From Muribaculaceae bacterium (GTDB lineage Bacteria > Bacteroidota > Bacteroidia > Bacteroidales > Muribaculaceae): a DNA stretch of 64,000 nt. The DNA lies in assembly GCA_023667285.1 (NCBI GenBank), contig JAMPAK010000001.1, forward strand, positions 574,383-638,382. Direction: 5' to 3'. Positions 57,534-64,000 of the stretch are shown here, one piece after another. Below the pieces are notes generated by a model, which did no database searches, was not told the DNA's origin, and was given only the letters and a program-made list of their open reading frames with translations. Both the position numbers and the translations under genes were made by a program. The first letter of the stretch is position 1. Each line of letters opens with the position of its first letter.

Positions 57534-57566
57534 CACGGGCTGCAAGAGATTTTCTTGCAGCCCGTG
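57534..57566. terminator. Bidirectional terminator
   Basis: CACGGGCTGCAAGA (57534-57547) and TCTTGCAGCCCGTG (57553-57566) form a perfect 14-bp stem with a 5-nt loop between two convergent genes. T-runs are weak on both sides. Confidence 0.72.
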
Positions 57567-57588: not shown

Positions 57589-58863
57589 TTACTTCACTCG
57601 GAAGATTGACATCTTGTTTTCCTTGAGGTTGATGAGGGCATAGAATCCTGCACGTGAGACAGGGAATGTGCGCGAGAGGATGCCGTTCTTGTTGACATTC
57701 TGTGATGTCACTGAGATTGTCTGGTAGATCAGATTATCAGTGTTGACTTTGACCTCAAAGTTGAGAGGCTGAACGGGTACAAGAATCAGCTGTCCTATGG
57801 TAAGGTTGTCAGAGCCTTCAAGGACAATTGTGCCGTTCTCGGGGGTTATCGTGGGAATGTTCAGGTTGGCAACGTTCAGTTTGAGGACATTCTTGCTGCG
57901 CTTGGCGCCGACAAATGAGATGATTCCATGGTTAAGATAGACTGAGTCTTTCTCATACTCAAACTCCATGCGGGGGGCATAGGATTTGTTGCGGTCCTTG
58001 CGAATCTCGCGAATCTCCTTGAGATTGCGGATGTTTGTCGTGTTGTTGTGGTCAATGTACTTGAACGTGCCTTTGGCGTAATCCTGCTCGATGATGACCA
58101 CATCATGAATCACCTCGTTTTTGTCGAGATAGATGGTCTCGATGAGGGGTGCCTGATAGAAGATGGGTTCATCAGTATCGACAGCCACACGGCGCTGAAC
58201 AGCGATGTCTGAGGGGAGGATGCTGTAGATGCGGCCGTTGCAGTCTATGCGGGTAAGTTTGCCGGGCTCGGAGCTGATGATCTGTCCAAGGTATGGCATG
58301 CCGCTATTCTTGGTGATAATCTCATCATTGATGCCGTTGACCTGCTTGGGGTTGCGAAGGTCGCGTGTGATGACGCTGATCTCGCTCATATTTGCCTGAA
58401 CCTCGTGGGGATAAGTGTCGCGATATTTCACAACCGATCCCTCCTCGAGAATCTCGACGTTGCGGATCACCTCTTGTCTCGGAACAGCAGTCTTTACTAT
58501 CTTGAAGGTAGCGCTGGTGCTGTGATTGGTCGAGTCAACCTCTACTACATCTGCAACAGAAGTGTTGACAGAGTCTACCACGGTGTAGTAGATATCTGAG
58601 AGTTGCTTGGCAGGCTCTGAAGAGGCCTTGGGGAAAATCGTTTTTCTGGGGGTCTGGCTATGATGCTCGATGCGGTCAATTACGTCAGAAGGGAGGTATG
58701 CCACAGTTGTATCGGCGAGGATGCTTATCTCGCCGTTGGCCTTCTGCATGCACATGTAGCCCTCATACTTATTGCCGTTGCTCATGGTGATGGTCTCAAT
58801 CACCTCAGCCGCCATGGCGGTTGAGGCAATGAGAGCGGCGAGCGCCAATAGTGTCTTTTTCAT
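57589..58863 (-). CDS. Secreted protein of unknown function
   Basis: I recognise no family. The 424-residue product has a clear signal peptide (MKKTLLALAALIASTAMA). The start of the mature part, TITMSNGNKYEGYMCMQKAN, resembles small beta-barrel repeats. Similar short units recur (GNKYEGYM, LPSDVIDRIEHH; GRIYSILPSDIAV; ETIYLDKNEVIHDVV), so it may be an internal repeat protein. No cysteine or lipid anchor is evident. It is the last gene of a five-gene operon with the WG-repeat protein (11-nt gap), and it probably serves the same envelope system. Confidence 0.75.
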   Translation of the reverse strand: MKKTLLALAALIASTAMAAEVIETITMSNGNKYEGYMCMQKANGEISILADTTVAYLPSDVIDRIEHHSQTPRKTIFPKASSEPAKQLSDIYYTVVDSVNTSVADVVEVDSTNHSTSATFKIVKTAVPRQEVIRNVEILEEGSVVKYRDTYPHEVQANMSEISVITRDLRNPKQVNGINDEIITKNSGMPYLGQIISSEPGKLTRIDCNGRIYSILPSDIAVQRRVAVDTDEPIFYQAPLIETIYLDKNEVIHDVVIIEQDYAKGTFKYIDHNNTTNIRNLKEIREIRKDRNKSYAPRMEFEYEKDSVYLNHGIISFVGAKRSKNVLKLNVANLNIPTITPENGTIVLEGSDNLTIGQLILVPVQPLNFEVKVNTDNLIYQTISVTSQNVNKNGILSRTFPVSRAGFYALINLKENKMSIFRVK

Positions 58864-58874
58864 CGTGTGTATGT

Positions 58875-60422
58875 TTAGAGATTAAAGAAAGGCTCAAGGG
58901 TGATTTTCCTGCTTTCTGACTCATCTCCAACAGTCACAGTGACACTGCGGGTCTCAGACTTAGTCACCTTTGAGAAGTAAAGGTTGACAGTGGCCTTGCC
59001 ACCGGCTTTGATTGTGACACGTTTTGGCGAAACAGAGGCTCCAGTGGCGGAGACTGCGCCTGTGAATGTCTTTGAGCCGCGATTGCTGATGGTGACACCG
59101 ATGGCGGCTGCATCCTTGGCGTTTGCCTTGGCGCGGGTGGTTGAGAACGAAATCTCGATGTCGCTGCTGCCACTCTGTTCAACCTGCTTCACCTCGGGCT
59201 TCATGGTCGAGTTCCAAACTTCGATGCCGTCAACGCTCACGCGGATCATGCGGTCACCCTTGGGGAGCATGATGGGGAGTGAGTGACGCCCGGTCTCGTT
59301 TGCCGCGCCCTGGACGGTTGCGGCAAGTTTGTTGGCGCTGTCATATGCATCGGCGGTGACGTTCATGTTGGCGAGGCCACGGGGGACTGTGACGTCGATG
59401 ATGGCGCTCTCCACGCTGTTGTCAGTCGGAGTGGCGGTGCCACGCTTCACGTTGACCTCAACATTTCCGCTGATGAGGTCAAGCACACCCACTGCTCTGT
59501 TTTTGGCAGCGATGGCATGGCCGTCTGTGAAGTTGTTTGCAGCAGTGAACTGAGCCGGAATCATGACGCGGTCTCCCACTTTGTAGCCATAGAGTTGTCC
59601 CTCCTGATAAGTGGTCATGGCATTGAGGGGTGTTGTCGATGTGGCGGCTGTGGTTTCATCCGGCTTGACAAGACAGTATCTTTCATCAAAAGTGAGGGCT
59701 GCAAGGGGTTCCATTCTCAGCATAGTGCCCATAGGGTTGATGATGAAGCACTGGCGGTCCTTGTTCATCACAAGGGCCTCACCGTCCTTAAATGTTGTGC
59801 CGAGATAGATGTCGCCAATCTCGCGTGGGAGTTTGAGTTCTTTGCCAAACTGGTTGATATAGTATATCTTATCGTTTCCAACTAGACCATCTGCGCCAAC
59901 TGCACTCACGGCTTTTGAGAGGATGCCACCCTTAGGCTTGGAGACAGCAGCAAGACCGTTTGAGAAAGGATGGGGGTTAGAGAACTTGAAGGGGACAATC
60001 TCTCGGCCGTTGCGGTCGACATATCCGACCTTTCCACTTCTGTTAGCCACGGGGAGAAGTCCCTCAGAGAAGAGTGGGAACTGGTCTGTGTAGAGCTCAT
60101 CGCTCACGTTTGAGACCACTCCGTCCTCCGAGAGGATGCCGACGAGGCGCATTTTGCCCTCGGGGGTGCCGTTGAGAATCAGTGCGAGGCCCTCGGAGAA
60201 GGGGGTGATGGAGTCGTAGGCGATGGCCACAACTGTGCGGCCATCAGGGGCAACGACACCCGACTTCATTGTCTGTTTGACCTTGTAGAGATTGTTTGCC
60301 CCCATGGGCATCACTGCTCTATACTGGGGCTTTATGAGCCATCTGGCGGTCTCCGCATTGGCTGAAGGGGCGATTGCCCCCACAGTCAATAAGGCAGCCA
60401 TTATGATAGATGATATTTTCAT
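58875..60422 (-). CDS. Secreted WG-repeat protein
   Basis: The 515-residue product has a signal peptide (cleaved near ANAE). Several WG-type beta repeats fill residues ~30-330, with patterns such as GVVAPDGRTVVAIAYDSITP, then FSEGLALI, and GKVGYVDRNGREIVPFKF, then FSNGLAAV. The C-terminal third has an Ig-like/beta-sandwich composition (FSTTRAKANAKDAAAIGVTI, GSKTFTGAVSA). WG repeats usually mediate protein contacts. It follows the protease gene by 17 nt in the FHA/PP2C operon. Confidence 0.82.
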   Translation of the reverse strand: MKISSIIMAALLTVGAIAPSANAETARWLIKPQYRAVMPMGANNLYKVKQTMKSGVVAPDGRTVVAIAYDSITPFSEGLALILNGTPEGKMRLVGILSEDGVVSNVSDELYTDQFPLFSEGLLPVANRSGKVGYVDRNGREIVPFKFSNPHPFSNGLAAVSKPKGGILSKAVSAVGADGLVGNDKIYYINQFGKELKLPREIGDIYLGTTFKDGEALVMNKDRQCFIINPMGTMLRMEPLAALTFDERYCLVKPDETTAATSTTPLNAMTTYQEGQLYGYKVGDRVMIPAQFTAANNFTDGHAIAAKNRAVGVLDLISGNVEVNVKRGTATPTDNSVESAIIDVTVPRGLANMNVTADAYDSANKLAATVQGAANETGRHSLPIMLPKGDRMIRVSVDGIEVWNSTMKPEVKQVEQSGSSDIEISFSTTRAKANAKDAAAIGVTISNRGSKTFTGAVSATGASVSPKRVTIKAGGKATVNLYFSKVTKSETRSVTVTVGDESESRKITLEPFFNL

Positions 60423-60439
60423 ATAGGCGTAGTTAGTTT

Positions 60440-62068
60440 TTACTTAGTTTCATTTTCATACATCTCCTTGAGATACTTGGCGTGTATGGCTCGGCCATAT
60501 GTTGACCCACCGAGGAGATGTCCGTATGCTATACCCATGAGTCGTCCGGTCTTTGTGCAGAATATGGGTGATCCGCTAGCACCGGGGACAATCTCACCCT
60601 GAATGTCAAAGTAGTATTTGCTAGGCATTGAGCTGCACATGGTCTCGCGCACCTGGGGACGTAGTTTCTGGATCTTCGGGTCAAGTGACCATGCTAGGCC
60701 ATTAGGATAGCCAATCCAAGTGAGGCGTTCCTTCTGCGTCTCAATTTTTTCCATTGAGAAGGTGGAGGGGTCAAATACCCATGGAATGCTCTCAGGTGTG
60801 TGGGGGTCGTTGAGCTGTATGAGGGCGATGTCAATTTCCTTGTCCTTTGAGTAGTCGAGCATTGTGCAGCGGGAGAATTCATCGAGACTTGCATAGTTGC
60901 GGTTGGGGTATGCGATGCCGAAATAGTCAAGTTCACCTACAATCTTGAACTTCGCGTTGCGGAGTTGACGGATGAGCGAATTGGCATACTGGCCACCTTT
61001 ACCTTCCTTGATGGCCTGTGTACGCACCATGGGCCAGAATACGCTGGAACTCATGTTGTAGGCAGCCTCAACCTCGGCTGAGGTGAGTTCCATGGGCAAA
61101 TGATCGTGCATTAGTTGCTCGGCCTCGTTGTGCCATTCTTTCTGTTTTTCTTCAGGCTCATACTCCCAAGGTACAGCCACATGACGGTTTGTGCCCATGC
61201 GACCATCACGGTCAAGGAAGAATGCTGTGCCGGTGTAGGCTTCCTGCTTCACTTTCAGGCGTCCGGGTGCGAAGCCGGTTTGCGCTGTCCAAATGTCATC
61301 GTGTATGGGGCTATTTTCGAGCTCGAGATAAACAGTGTAGACTCCATATACCATCACAACTGCTTTCTGTGCCTCTGTCAAGTTGTAGCCTTTGACAATA
61401 TTGCCGCAGGAGCAGTCCTGAAATAACGAGAAGCCGGAAGAGTTGCCACCGTTACCGTTAATCAGTGCTTTTACGCCGAATATGATTCCGACACAAGCGG
61501 CAGCGGCTACAAGACCGATGAGAGCCTTCTTGACCCAACCGTAGGGGTTGGGGATGTATTGCTTGAGCTGTTCGGTGACATCCTCATCTGCCACGACAAC
61601 GTTGTCGCCATGTTTGAGTGTGACGCGCTTGCCCTTGGGTATTTTCTGACCGTTGACCTCAGTGCCGTTCTTTGAATTGTTGTCGAGAAGAGTGCAGTTG
61701 CCTTTCTTGTCGACGAAGAGAGTGGCATGGTAGCGGCTGGCAAACTGGCTGCTGACATTGACGTCGCAGCGGTGGCTTGTGCCTATATTGATGATTGACT
61801 TGTATTTTGAGGGGTTCTCAAGCACCGGGACCTGGTGCCACTGCAACTGGACATCCCCAAATTTGATGAGGTCACCGCGATGAACGGGTGTCTCTACATT
61901 GGGAGTGAGTTTCTGACCGCCGACAAAAGTGCCGTTGGTGCTGTTTTTGTCCTCGATGAAGATGTCGCCGTTGTCAAGGAGAGTGAGTTCGGCGTGTACT
62001 CCGCTGACATACGGGCTATTGAGCACGATGCTGCAACTCGGATCCGAGCCTATCTTAAGGAGTTTCAT
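60440..62068 (-). CDS. Double-FHA transmembrane trypsin-like protease
   Basis: The 542-residue product has two FHA domains (~1-80 and ~88-165), each with phospho-threonine pocket residues (S22, H25, N45; then S111, H114, N134). One membrane span (~182-203) and a trypsin-like domain (~225-542) follow. Visible catalytic residues are H296 in GTNRHVAVP, D413 in EIDIALIQL and S498 in GASGSPIF. This topology puts FHA domains in the cytoplasm and the protease in the periplasm. The domain order is unusual and suggests phospho-signal control of proteolysis. It lies in an operon with a PP2C phosphatase. Confidence 0.85.
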   Translation of the reverse strand: MKLLKIGSDPSCSIVLNSPYVSGVHAELTLLDNGDIFIEDKNSTNGTFVGGQKLTPNVETPVHRGDLIKFGDVQLQWHQVPVLENPSKYKSIINIGTSHRCDVNVSSQFASRYHATLFVDKKGNCTLLDNNSKNGTEVNGQKIPKGKRVTLKHGDNVVVADEDVTEQLKQYIPNPYGWVKKALIGLVAAAACVGIIFGVKALINGNGGNSSGFSLFQDCSCGNIVKGYNLTEAQKAVVMVYGVYTVYLELENSPIHDDIWTAQTGFAPGRLKVKQEAYTGTAFFLDRDGRMGTNRHVAVPWEYEPEEKQKEWHNEAEQLMHDHLPMELTSAEVEAAYNMSSSVFWPMVRTQAIKEGKGGQYANSLIRQLRNAKFKIVGELDYFGIAYPNRNYASLDEFSRCTMLDYSKDKEIDIALIQLNDPHTPESIPWVFDPSTFSMEKIETQKERLTWIGYPNGLAWSLDPKIQKLRPQVRETMCSSMPSKYYFDIQGEIVPGASGSPIFCTKTGRLMGIAYGHLLGGSTYGRAIHAKYLKEMYENETK

Positions 62069-62125
62069 GAATTAAGGGATATTGATTTGGTTTTGTTTTG
62101 ATTTAGATATTGTGGGGCCGGAGCA

Positions 62126-62749
62126 TCACATGTGCCACTGTTGAGACTGCTCCTCAGTCTTCTTAGGCTCGTCCTTTTTTTGCTCAGACTCTTGTTTCTT
62201 CTTCTTCTCGTCCTGCTCTTTCTTCTTGCGTCTTTCTTCCTGTCTCTTCTTTTCGCGCTCTTTTTCCTCAGCGGTCTGGAAGAATTTAACATTCTTATCA
62301 GCGTCCTTGACAGTGTCTTTCTTCTCCTTTTCCTTCTCCTTTGTGTTTTCCTCCGGTTTGGGAGCGGGTGTGGAGTCATACTGCTCGATAAGGGTATCAT
62401 TGTCATTGCCTCCCCAGTCAATCTTGTTGACAAGCGAGATGATGACACATGCGGCAATGATGACCAGCAGGCCAATCCCACAGAGGCGATAGGGACGCAT
62501 GAGGTCAGGCACCTGGTCCCAGTCGAGCTGAGCCACCTGAGCGAACGACACCACGTCTTTGCGTGTGACAGGGTAGGGCTTATTGGAAGCAAGACGTATG
62601 CCGTTGACATATGTTCCGTTCTTGCTGAGGTCGCGTATCTCCATCTTGCCGAAAGGCATCAGTTTGATGGTGGCATGGCGGCGGCTGACAAGGTCGTTGT
62701 CGATGATGATGTTTGACTCTACACCGCGTCCGATTGAGATGATTTTCAT
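62126..62749 (-). CDS. FHA-domain membrane protein with charged tail
   Basis: The 207-residue product has an FHA domain (~1-80; S22-R-R-H25 and N44-G-T) and a membrane span (~88-108). A tail of ~95 residues made almost only of Lys, Glu, Asp, Gln and Arg follows (~115-207), probably a coiled coil or a disordered stalk outside the membrane. It lies 3 nt after the PP2C gene and 57 nt before the double-FHA protease gene. It may be an adaptor that reads the same phospho-threonine marks. Confidence 0.84.
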   Translation of the reverse strand: MKIISIGRGVESNIIIDNDLVSRRHATIKLMPFGKMEIRDLSKNGTYVNGIRLASNKPYPVTRKDVVSFAQVAQLDWDQVPDLMRPYRLCGIGLLVIIAACVIISLVNKIDWGGNDNDTLIEQYDSTPAPKPEENTKEKEKEKKDTVKDADKNVKFFQTAEEKEREKKRQEERRKKKEQDEKKKKQESEQKKDEPKKTEEQSQQWHM

Positions 62750-62752
62750 GGT

Positions 62753-64000
62753 TTATTTCTTGGTTGTGGGATTACTCTTTATCTGATTGTTGAGCGACTC
62801 AAGAGCCTTGATGATAGCCTTGATATGTCCTTCACGGTTTTTGTTTGCGACATCCTTGGTTATAGAGTTTGTGATCCATTTCTTATTGACACATTCAATA
62901 AACTTCTCATTTTGGATGTTCATCTCCTTTACTTTCTTTGTGAGAGCGTCCATCTTCTTGGAGGCGGCGCTGACGGCATCATCAAGTTTCTTGCCTCTTT
63001 GTTTGATTTTGCCAATGTTGTTGACGTCTGCAATGAGGACGTTGATGTCGCTGATGACCTGGAGCGATTCCTTGTCCTTGTTCATGTCCTGGGTAAGTGC
63101 GGGCTTCTCCTCAGATTTCTTCTTGTTGTCCTCGCTCTTCTGGGGCTGAGTGTTGGACTCGATGTATTTCATGTATTCGTCGAGGCGTGAGGCATAGAAT
63201 TCGTCCTGTTCGGCCATCTGGCGGCGATACTTTTCGAGTTCCTCGTCGTTGCGTTTCTGAGCCTCGTCGAGCAGACGCTCAAGTTCGGCGCGTGTCACTA
63301 CTGAGTCGTTGGGATTTGTGGAGGCCAGTTCCTTGCGTGTGGGGTTTGAGTGCTTGTAGGCCCGATATTGGATGAAGTTTGCCAGCAGGCTGATGCAGCA
63401 GAGCGCGGCGAGAGCATAGAGCGTATATTTGATCTTTGTGCTCATTTTCTGTTTTAGTTTTGAGTTAAGTGTGGTCTGCAGCATAGCCACAGTGAGATTG
63501 TCGTGATTTCCGCCATGGGCATTGCCGAGCTCGTCGACCTTGATGGCGAGGCTCTCGACGGCTCCGGCGAGCGACTTGGTGCCTCCCGCTATCTGGAGCA
63601 GTTCCTTCTCGGGGAAGGCTCCCCAGATTCCGTCGGTGCAGAGCATGAAGCGGTCTCCTTTCTCGTAGGGGAGCTCGGCCACATCAGGCACCACATCGCC
63701 CATGGGGCCTAGAGCGCGTGTGATGATGTTGCTCTCGCCTGAGAGCCGGGCCTTCTCCTCAGTGAGGGCTCCGGCCTTGACAAGCTCGAAGACCTTGGAG
63801 TGGTCAAATGTGCGGAACACCTTTGTTGTGCCGCGCAGTTGATAGACTCTGGAGTCTCCGACGTGGGCCACGATGGCCGACTGCTCGTTGATGAGGAGCG
63901 CGGTCACTGTGGTGCCCATTCCGCGCAGTTTTGGCTCGGCGGCCTGGGCTGCAAGGAGAGCCTCGGCGGCGGCCTTGACTGCACGTGTGATGACGTCGCG
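62753..64000 (-). CDS. PP2C-type protein phosphatase with membrane span and coiled coil (5'-partial)
   Basis: The frame is open to the window edge, so the N-terminus is missing. The 415 visible residues begin within the catalytic PP2C domain (GMGTTVTAL, AHVGDSRVYQL, FMLCTDGIWGAF, HDNLTVAML), which binds two metals and removes phosphate from Ser/Thr. A membrane span follows the phosphatase (~170 residues before the coiled coil). Then comes a long charged helical region (RAELERLLDEAQKRNDEELE) facing the other side. It is the first gene of the operon visible here; a Ser/Thr kinase would be expected upstream. Confidence 0.87.
   Translation of the reverse strand, partial: RDVITRAVKAAAEALLAAQAAEPKLRGMGTTVTALLINEQSAIVAHVGDSRVYQLRGTTKVFRTFDHSKVFELVKAGALTEEKARLSGESNIITRALGPMGDVVPDVAELPYEKGDRFMLCTDGIWGAFPEKELLQIAGGTKSLAGAVESLAIKVDELGNAHGGNHDNLTVAMLQTTLNSKLKQKMSTKIKYTLYALAALCCISLLANFIQYRAYKHSNPTRKELASTNPNDSVVTRAELERLLDEAQKRNDEELEKYRRQMAEQDEFYASRLDEYMKYIESNTQPQKSEDNKKKSEEKPALTQDMNKDKESLQVISDINVLIADVNNIGKIKQRGKKLDDAVSAASKKMDALTKKVKEMNIQNEKFIECVNKKWITNSITKDVANKNREGHIKAIIKALESLNNQIKSNPTTKK

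Follow-up and report, generated by a model that had tools for sequence, protein, structure and literature searches.

How phosphorylation in the cytoplasm of a bacterium could be passed on to proteolysis in its periplasm is the question raised by an operon at the end of a 64,000-nucleotide stretch of a Muribaculaceae genome (contig JAMPAK010000001.1, G000:C11:574383-638382; the whole of this stretch is called the window here). The operon comprises eight genes on the minus strand and extends beyond the window edge at position 64000, where the contig continues. It encodes, in this order, an FHA protein, a membrane kinase, a soluble kinase, a PP2C-type phosphatase with a transmembrane (TM) stretch and a coil, an FHA protein with a TM stretch and a stalk, a protease composed of two FHA domains, a TM stretch and a trypsin-like domain, a WG-repeat protein and a repeat protein (Table 1). 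We consider it fairly probable that the operon is a trans-envelope Ser/Thr phospho-switch which has the membrane protease as its output and which is shared by several envelope machines. To our knowledge, Ser/Thr phospho-signalling has been little explored in Bacteroidota, and the control of the type VI secretion systems (T6SSs) of this phylum, injection machines of a kind that bacteria turn on their rivals, is an open question.

The candidate parts of such a switch lie contiguously on one strand. An earlier note on this DNA had reported five genes 3–57 nt apart, whose positions agree with ours; they lie on the minus strand and are separated by 11, 17, 57, and 3 nt. Its domain calls are backed by Pfam for PP2C, FHA, the double FHA with Trypsin_2, and WG, the last gene being without a family, and the kinase which it expected beyond position 64000 is present twice, as two kinases of the same operon (294 and 569 aa). 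The phosphatase gene, cut by the window edge, encodes 490 aa as a whole and starts at window-equivalent position 64225. A single hydrophobic stretch is present in the phosphatase, the stalk protein, the protease, and the membrane kinase alike; the N termini of the WG protein and the repeat protein are signal-like. The C-terminal region of the WG protein is Ig/CARDB-like by matches below cut-off, and the repeat protein consists of three diverged repeats of ~45 residues (profile-profile probabilities 95, 88, and 96%).

The intact His-Asp-Ser triad claimed by the earlier note for the protease is borne out by the alignment, as His296, Asp413, and Ser498 are invariant in 15 aligned rows; by pattern, the His and Ser motifs are found in 29/29 full-length loci and the Asp motif in 28/29. 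The protease passes the Pfam gathering cut-off for Trypsin_2 (37.7 vs 27.6 bits) and stays below that of the MarP model NF033740 (19.5 bits, cut-off 250). The FhaB/FipA model NF049868 (cut-off 125 bits) is reached neither by the protease (77.8) nor by the stalk protein (33.1) or the cytosolic FHA protein (25.1). FHA domains that bind phosphothreonine follow the residue rule Gly-Arg ... Ser-x-x-His ... Asn-Gly. The stalk protein has the residues IGR...SRRH...KNGTYVNG, and the cytosolic FHA protein keeps the usual ones with a Thr-x-x-His variant. The soluble kinase of the window keeps the motifs VAIK, HLDIKPSN, and DLG. All five PP2C motif patterns are present in the phosphatase, which passes the Pfam PP2C_2 cut-off and does not reach that of the Stp1/IreP model NF033484 (186.8 bits, cut-off 230).

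The linkage of these genes, for which the earlier note had proposed a survey in other genomes, holds across other genera, other families and another class of the phylum. All 29 full-length double-FHA protease loci that were read have a kinase and a PP2C gene on the same strand no more than 5 kb away, and a further FHA gene no more than 3 kb away; these loci were selected for a full-length FHA-FHA-protease, and the strand test covers the kinases and PP2C only. Kinase counts are best-hit labels that can include an FHA fragment, and every locus has at least one kinase. The neighbourhoods read comprise all 17 matches of a draw of genomes from the family, 6 of the 80 loci from a search of named genomes, 7 of the 11 new matches of an order draw (344 genomes) and 6 of the 9 new matches of a phylum draw (395 genomes). 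For the remaining 74 of the 80 named-genome loci, the listed match ranges end by query residue 202, within the FHA part. Left out of the 29 were a locus with the protease part only (G107), loci without a full FHA-FHA-protease (G128, G435, G268, G678), loci with FHA and kinases and no protease (L052, L057), and partial matches (G245, G287, G384, G437, G625, G532, G512). Presence is patchy: the protease search of the family draw gave matches in 17/119 genomes, the window genome included, and in 2/8 of the genus genomes listed there. Presence counts are lower bounds, as at most four candidates were scored per genome in the order draw and at most three in the phylum draw.

The whole set of eight genes recurs in window order in L027 and L028, and the set is likewise complete and in unchanged order in a Phocaeicola massiliensis record (L230; additional to the 29). 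This record, OY726067.1, is the only one among 72,556 plasmid records that matches the operon at E 1e-8, and 0/50,697 phage records match at this threshold. Further frames of OY726067.1, judged by their first residues, we take to be aconitase-, isocitrate dehydrogenase-, and citrate synthase-like. The record may therefore be chromosomal DNA labelled as plasmid, and because of this possible mislabelling it is not used as proof of mobility.

Four forms of the operon can be distinguished. Type A (window, L027-L029, L033, L035, L036, L043, L146-L149) holds two kinases, PP2C, stalk protein, protease, and WG protein, and by sequence match the repeat protein in all loci except L029; L146 is cut by the contig start. 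In L029 (13586-15157, G057) the membrane kinase is split across two frames. In some type A loci there are also genes for an outer-membrane barrel, a lipoprotein-like product, and an S41 peptidase, the barrel and the peptidase being recognised by model in L033 and by similarity in the others. Type B (L030, L031, L032, L034, with upstream stretches L158, L175, L156, and L157) has the order FHA gene, membrane kinase, insert, soluble kinase, PP2C, stalk protein, protease, and repeat protein. Encoded in the insert are a large protein (1010-2131 aa), a TM protein resembling a zinc ribbon, a vWA protein similar to TssR, and an FtsX permease paired with an ABC ATPase. In L034 there are model matches for TssR, ABC, and FtsX, and G038 and G041 match TssR_VWA; the remaining copies were recognised by size and first residues only. 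One tested large type B protein (L156 10791-15515) has a type IX secretion system sorting tail over cut-off. Type C (L037-L041, L044-L046) starts with the protease; FHA, PP2C, and kinase genes follow, and at the end a giant kinase of ~1200 aa, which is cut by the contig end in L041. Type D stands for the core as it occurs in five genomes from another class of the phylum, each with at least one kinase. Within that class, the core of f136 (L227 1-19374) lies in a run of many same-strand kinase genes. The protease tree places the window copy together with L027-L029 in a group whose sister is type B (support 99/98). Members of the window family occupy three separate places in it, which fits either transfer or old duplication.

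In three genomes the module adjoins T6SS genes of the Bacteroidota type (G373, G098, and G388, the last cut by its contig). The type A module of G373 runs into a ClpB/ClpV-type ATPase gene, a gene of 148 aa (TssB by position, no Pfam match), TssC (PF17541, E 1.9e-130), and two TssD genes (PF17642). Further along are a peptidoglycan-binding protein, an M23 peptidase, and a gene that narrowly misses the cut-off for Tsi6, together with a TssK-like gene (54.4 bits, cut-off 100) and a weak TssF-like gene (E 0.0017-0.0036, under cut-off); the locus also carries a kinase-FHA protein, a second membrane kinase with a WG gene, and a zinc-ribbon-FHA-like protein. In G098, the ATPase, the gene in the TssB place, TssC, and TssD are present as close copies, and there is a gene similar to VgrG (111 bits, cut-off 186). 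The contig of G388 covers the ATPase gene and ends after residue 79 of TssC. With the module, the T6SS locus measures ~30-35 kb (L148 1-16046 with L165 4664-19901 in G373; L036 4918 to L173 3777 in G098). The proteases of the three genomes form one clade (support 100/100), which is not that of the window. TssC is 94% identical between G098 and G373, which belong to different families, and this suggests a recent transfer.

The window genome, whose assembly is 93.8% complete, has no TssC match at E 1e-10 or 1e-20, therefore the window copy stands alone. It has no TssR_VWA match either, and a query with the TssR-like protein also came back empty, which is a weak negative. Among 12 genomes tested, TssR_VWA is present in 2 of type B and absent in all 10 others, including G373, G098, and G388. 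TssN over cut-off was found in 0/8 genomes, with no positive control among them and with TssO, TssP, and TssQ not searched; the one TssN match of the window genome is below cut-off and interrupted by a stop. A T6SS function of the window copy is thus unsupported, given that its genome has neither a TssC nor a TssR_VWA match. Another T6SS type of the family, with ClpV-, TssB-, and TssC-like genes, was seen in G056 and G012 (L166, L167, L168), genomes that have TssC but not this module and no TssN match over cut-off; the stretches read there have no match to the operon kinase or FHA proteins.

Relatives of the window copy also differ in what lies upstream. In four type A loci (L033, L035, L036, L148) a recombinase-like gene precedes the operon; three of these genes match tyrosine recombinase models below curated cut-offs (best E 1.7e-11, 2.6e-12, 1.7e-17), and the short frame of L148, which has no model match, was named from its resemblance to the other three. 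The same four loci hold perfect inverted repeats of 15 to 23 nt, lengths that none of the 300 first-order shuffles made per locus attained (for L148, the longest in the shuffles is 14 nt vs 15 nt observed), and 8 other type A loci tested have no perfect inverted repeat of ≥10 nt. The Bacteroidetes -7 promoter consensus is TAnnTTTG. Such a box inside the repeats points toward the operon in L036 and L148 and away from it in L035, and none lies inside those of L033; L036 also carries a UpxY antiterminator (130.4 bits, cut-off 100). Together, these signs suggest an invertible operon promoter in the four relatives. For the window copy, no perfect arm of ≥10 nt with a spacer of 80-450 was found in L002 12076-12355.

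A 17-pair hairpin lies ahead of the first operon gene (L002 12224-12263) and is scored as a terminator on the plus strand only; the region contains 13 terminator-like sites vs a shuffle mean of 12.4, which is no excess. Upstream of this hairpin sits a leucine-rich repeat (LRR) gene that is kept in 21/27 genus genomes. It was excluded as a member of the system because the hairpin separates it from the operon, because it is kept in most of the genus, and because in 7 further genus loci the stretches read beside it hold no operon gene (in G465, the reading covers 2.5 kb of contig only). Of the 4 kinase-domain matches in the window genome (2.19 Mb), 2 fall in the operon, as do 4 of its 5 FHA-domain matches. 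The sole FHA match outside (G000:C11:1202384-1202557) belongs to a protein of 226 aa with two hydrophobic stretches, which resembles the last FHA gene of a type B operon (30%, E 1.4e-24). The other two kinase-domain matches are at G000:C11:251076-251546 and G000:C18:12504-12902, in stretches read without neighbours matching operon proteins.

Table 1. Positions of the operon genes, of the signals flanking them and of the inverted-repeat segments in relatives.
Feature	Position	Strand	Basis or remark
Cytosolic FHA protein, 241 aa	66967-67692 (window-equivalent, outside window)	-	First gene of operon
Membrane kinase, 569 aa, one TM stretch	65152-66861 (window-equivalent, outside window)	-	Pfam kinase E 3.3e-32
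Soluble kinase, 294 aa	64239-65123 (window-equivalent, outside window)	-	Pfam kinase E 1.2e-36
PP2C-type phosphatase, TM stretch near residue 267, coiled-coil-like tail	62753..64000, edge-cut	-	PP2C_2 E 6.5e-19
FHA-TM protein, Lys/Glu-rich stalk, 207 aa	62126..62749	-	FHA E 5.1e-16
FHA-FHA-TM-trypsin-like protease, 542 aa	60440..62068	-	Two FHA E 9.7e-38; Trypsin_2 E 4.4e-9
WG-repeat protein, secreted-looking, 515 aa	58875..60422	-	WG repeat E 1.3e-21
Repeat protein, secreted-looking, 424 aa	57589..58863	-	No Pfam family
Terminator-like hairpin, 14 pairs, 3' of last gene	57534..57566 (L002 1917-1949)	-	Hairpin scan
Promoter-like box TAACTTTG	67747-67754 (window-equivalent)		55 nt ahead of first operon gene
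Inverted-repeat segments	L035 4484-4672; L036 3940-4135; L033 15963-16153; L148 16567-16776		

From this gene set the following course of events can be proposed. The soluble and the membrane kinase would phosphorylate threonines on the membrane proteins of their own operon, and the membrane PP2C would strip the phosphate. The FHA domains of the stalk protein, of the cytosolic protein and, in two copies, of the protease would recognise these marks, and the membrane proteins would thereby be brought together in a complex, an assembly which could position or activate the periplasmic trypsin-like domain. The protease would then act on envelope partners, the WG protein and the repeat protein first. 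The core could be a portable control unit, which adjoins a T6SS or holds the TssR-like and ABC/FtsX set in relatives, and because of these associations the protease may be one output among several.

Several observations weigh against this phospho-switch. Both FHA domains of the window protease lack the usual Arg after the FHA Gly. The membrane kinase reads HRDIDPSN or HRDIDPTN, with the Lys of the catalytic loop replaced by Asp, in 14/14 intact copies, and it may be a weak kinase or a pseudokinase; because of this replacement, most of the phosphorylation would be expected to come from the soluble kinase, with the membrane kinase acting as a sensor or contributing weakly. The topology of the protease and of the other membrane proteins rests on hydropathy, with flanking charges weakly informative, and not only topology, but also kinase activity, phospho-binding, protease gating, and substrates are steps that we infer. 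At the genome level, a TssC match occurs in only 3/20 genomes with a full-length protease (family and order draws), the window genome not being among them. A full protease was found in 2/16 TssC genomes vs 3/328 others in the order draw (p 0.019), in which 14/16 TssC genomes are without the module, and in 1/3 TssC genomes vs 15/116 others in the family draw (p 0.35). The association of the module with T6SSs is accordingly modest to weak.

Other explanations give the T6SS a larger part. The operon could be a control or anchoring module of a T6SS, similar to the threonine phosphorylation pathway, in which case the window copy would be a remnant or would serve an unrecognised machine. We judge this to be unlikely, in spite of the T6SS genes that adjoin the module directly in G373 and G098 (ATPase, TssC, two TssD genes) and up to the contig end in G388 (ATPase, partial TssC), the TssR-like protein in the sister type B operons, and the functional precedent in Proteobacteria, as no TssC match occurs in the window genome or in 15/16 other family genomes with a protease match, TssR_VWA is absent from the 10 non-type-B genomes tested, and the T6SS-linked clade differs from that of the window. 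Moreover, all eight genes of the window copy are open and have kept their catalytic motifs, unlike a decaying remnant. Another rather unlikely possibility is confined to G373, G098, and G388, in which the module with its WG and repeat proteins might replace TssNQOPR of the Bacteroidota T6SS. It would be a phosphorylation-gated, protease-bearing base in the envelope for a contractile injection apparatus, switched by promoter inversion in some genomes, with the window holding the stand-alone form. If this was true, the stand-alone form would serve another envelope machine or act alone.

A different role would be that of an envelope-stress or surface-quality system similar to HtrA or MarP, in which the outer parts of the membrane kinase and PP2C would sense the periplasm, while upkeep or remodelling of the surface would fall to the protease together with the WG and repeat proteins. 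The trypsin-like domain, the weak match to MarP, and the outer-membrane barrel and S41-peptidase genes that join the operon in some relatives (by model in L033, by similarity in L146) argue for it. We nevertheless hold it to be doubtful, since the patchy presence in family and genus is unlike that of a housekeeping stress system and the invertible-promoter signs in relatives better suit a surface or antagonism trait. Patchiness would also suit an anti-phage or conflict system that is triggered by a kinase and has the protease as its effector. Both kinases match defence-kinase models of PADLOC, the protease gives weak matches to RT-protease models, and kinase/PP2C and trypsin-like parts are known in conflict systems (PMC7159879). 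With 35 and 34 models listed, however, the kinase matches look generic to Hanks kinases, the protease side of the TM stretch and the two secreted-looking proteins point outward, Pfam reveals neither a nuclease nor any other cytosolic effector among the operon products, and no phage record matches at E 1e-8, which makes a role in defence very improbable.

Read as a trans-envelope phospho-switch, the operon suggests a new coupling of cytoplasmic phosphorylation to periplasmic proteolysis, with FHA domains and a protease on one transmembrane chain. The set of writers, eraser, readers, and protease output is short, complete, and conserved, and since it occurs completely in the named species P. massiliensis and stands beside T6SS genes in other genomes, phospho-control of Bacteroidales envelope machines becomes directly testable by gene removal. 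Among known systems, the MarP/HtrA proteases share with it a membrane-anchored trypsin-like protease whose catalytic part is probably outside, whereas the operon protease has two FHA domains ahead of its single TM stretch and falls far short of the MarP model. The vWA/kinase/PP2C/trypsin conflict systems share neighbouring kinase and PP2C genes and trypsin-like peptidases, but are organised around GTPase, MoxR, or STAND components, of which the operon has none, and a double-FHA protease is not described in the part of that text consulted (PMC7159879). TssNQOPR (PMC10781749) is alike in the TssR-like vWA protein of type B and in the TssC and TssD families of the T6SS-linked relatives; it differs in that the window genome is without a TssR_VWA match and that G373, G098, and G388 have neither a TssN match over cut-off nor one to TssR_VWA. 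In the texts of two papers on Bacteroidota T6SSs, the words kinase and FHA have no match (PMC10781749, where phospho has none either; PMC4714493). The eight-gene set was not found described in the open-access literature, a provisional result, and as far as our searches show, there is no description yet of a double-FHA TM protease as output, of the conserved eight-gene set, or of such a module next to Bacteroidota T6SS genes. The kinase/PP2C/FHA logic, on the other hand, is known: in Proteobacteria such control of the T6SS is established (PMC5995506), and the PpkA-PppA-Fha threonine phosphorylation pathway is the closest working analogue. The operon differs from it by its two kinases, the double-FHA TM protease, the FHA-TM stalk protein, the WG and repeat proteins, the absence of a TssC match in the window genome, and a protease that scores 50.2 bits vs a TagH cut-off of 120.25. 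Common to both are a Hanks kinase, a PP2C, and an FHA protein in one cluster, which in G373, G098, and G388 only is likewise adjoined by T6SS genes.

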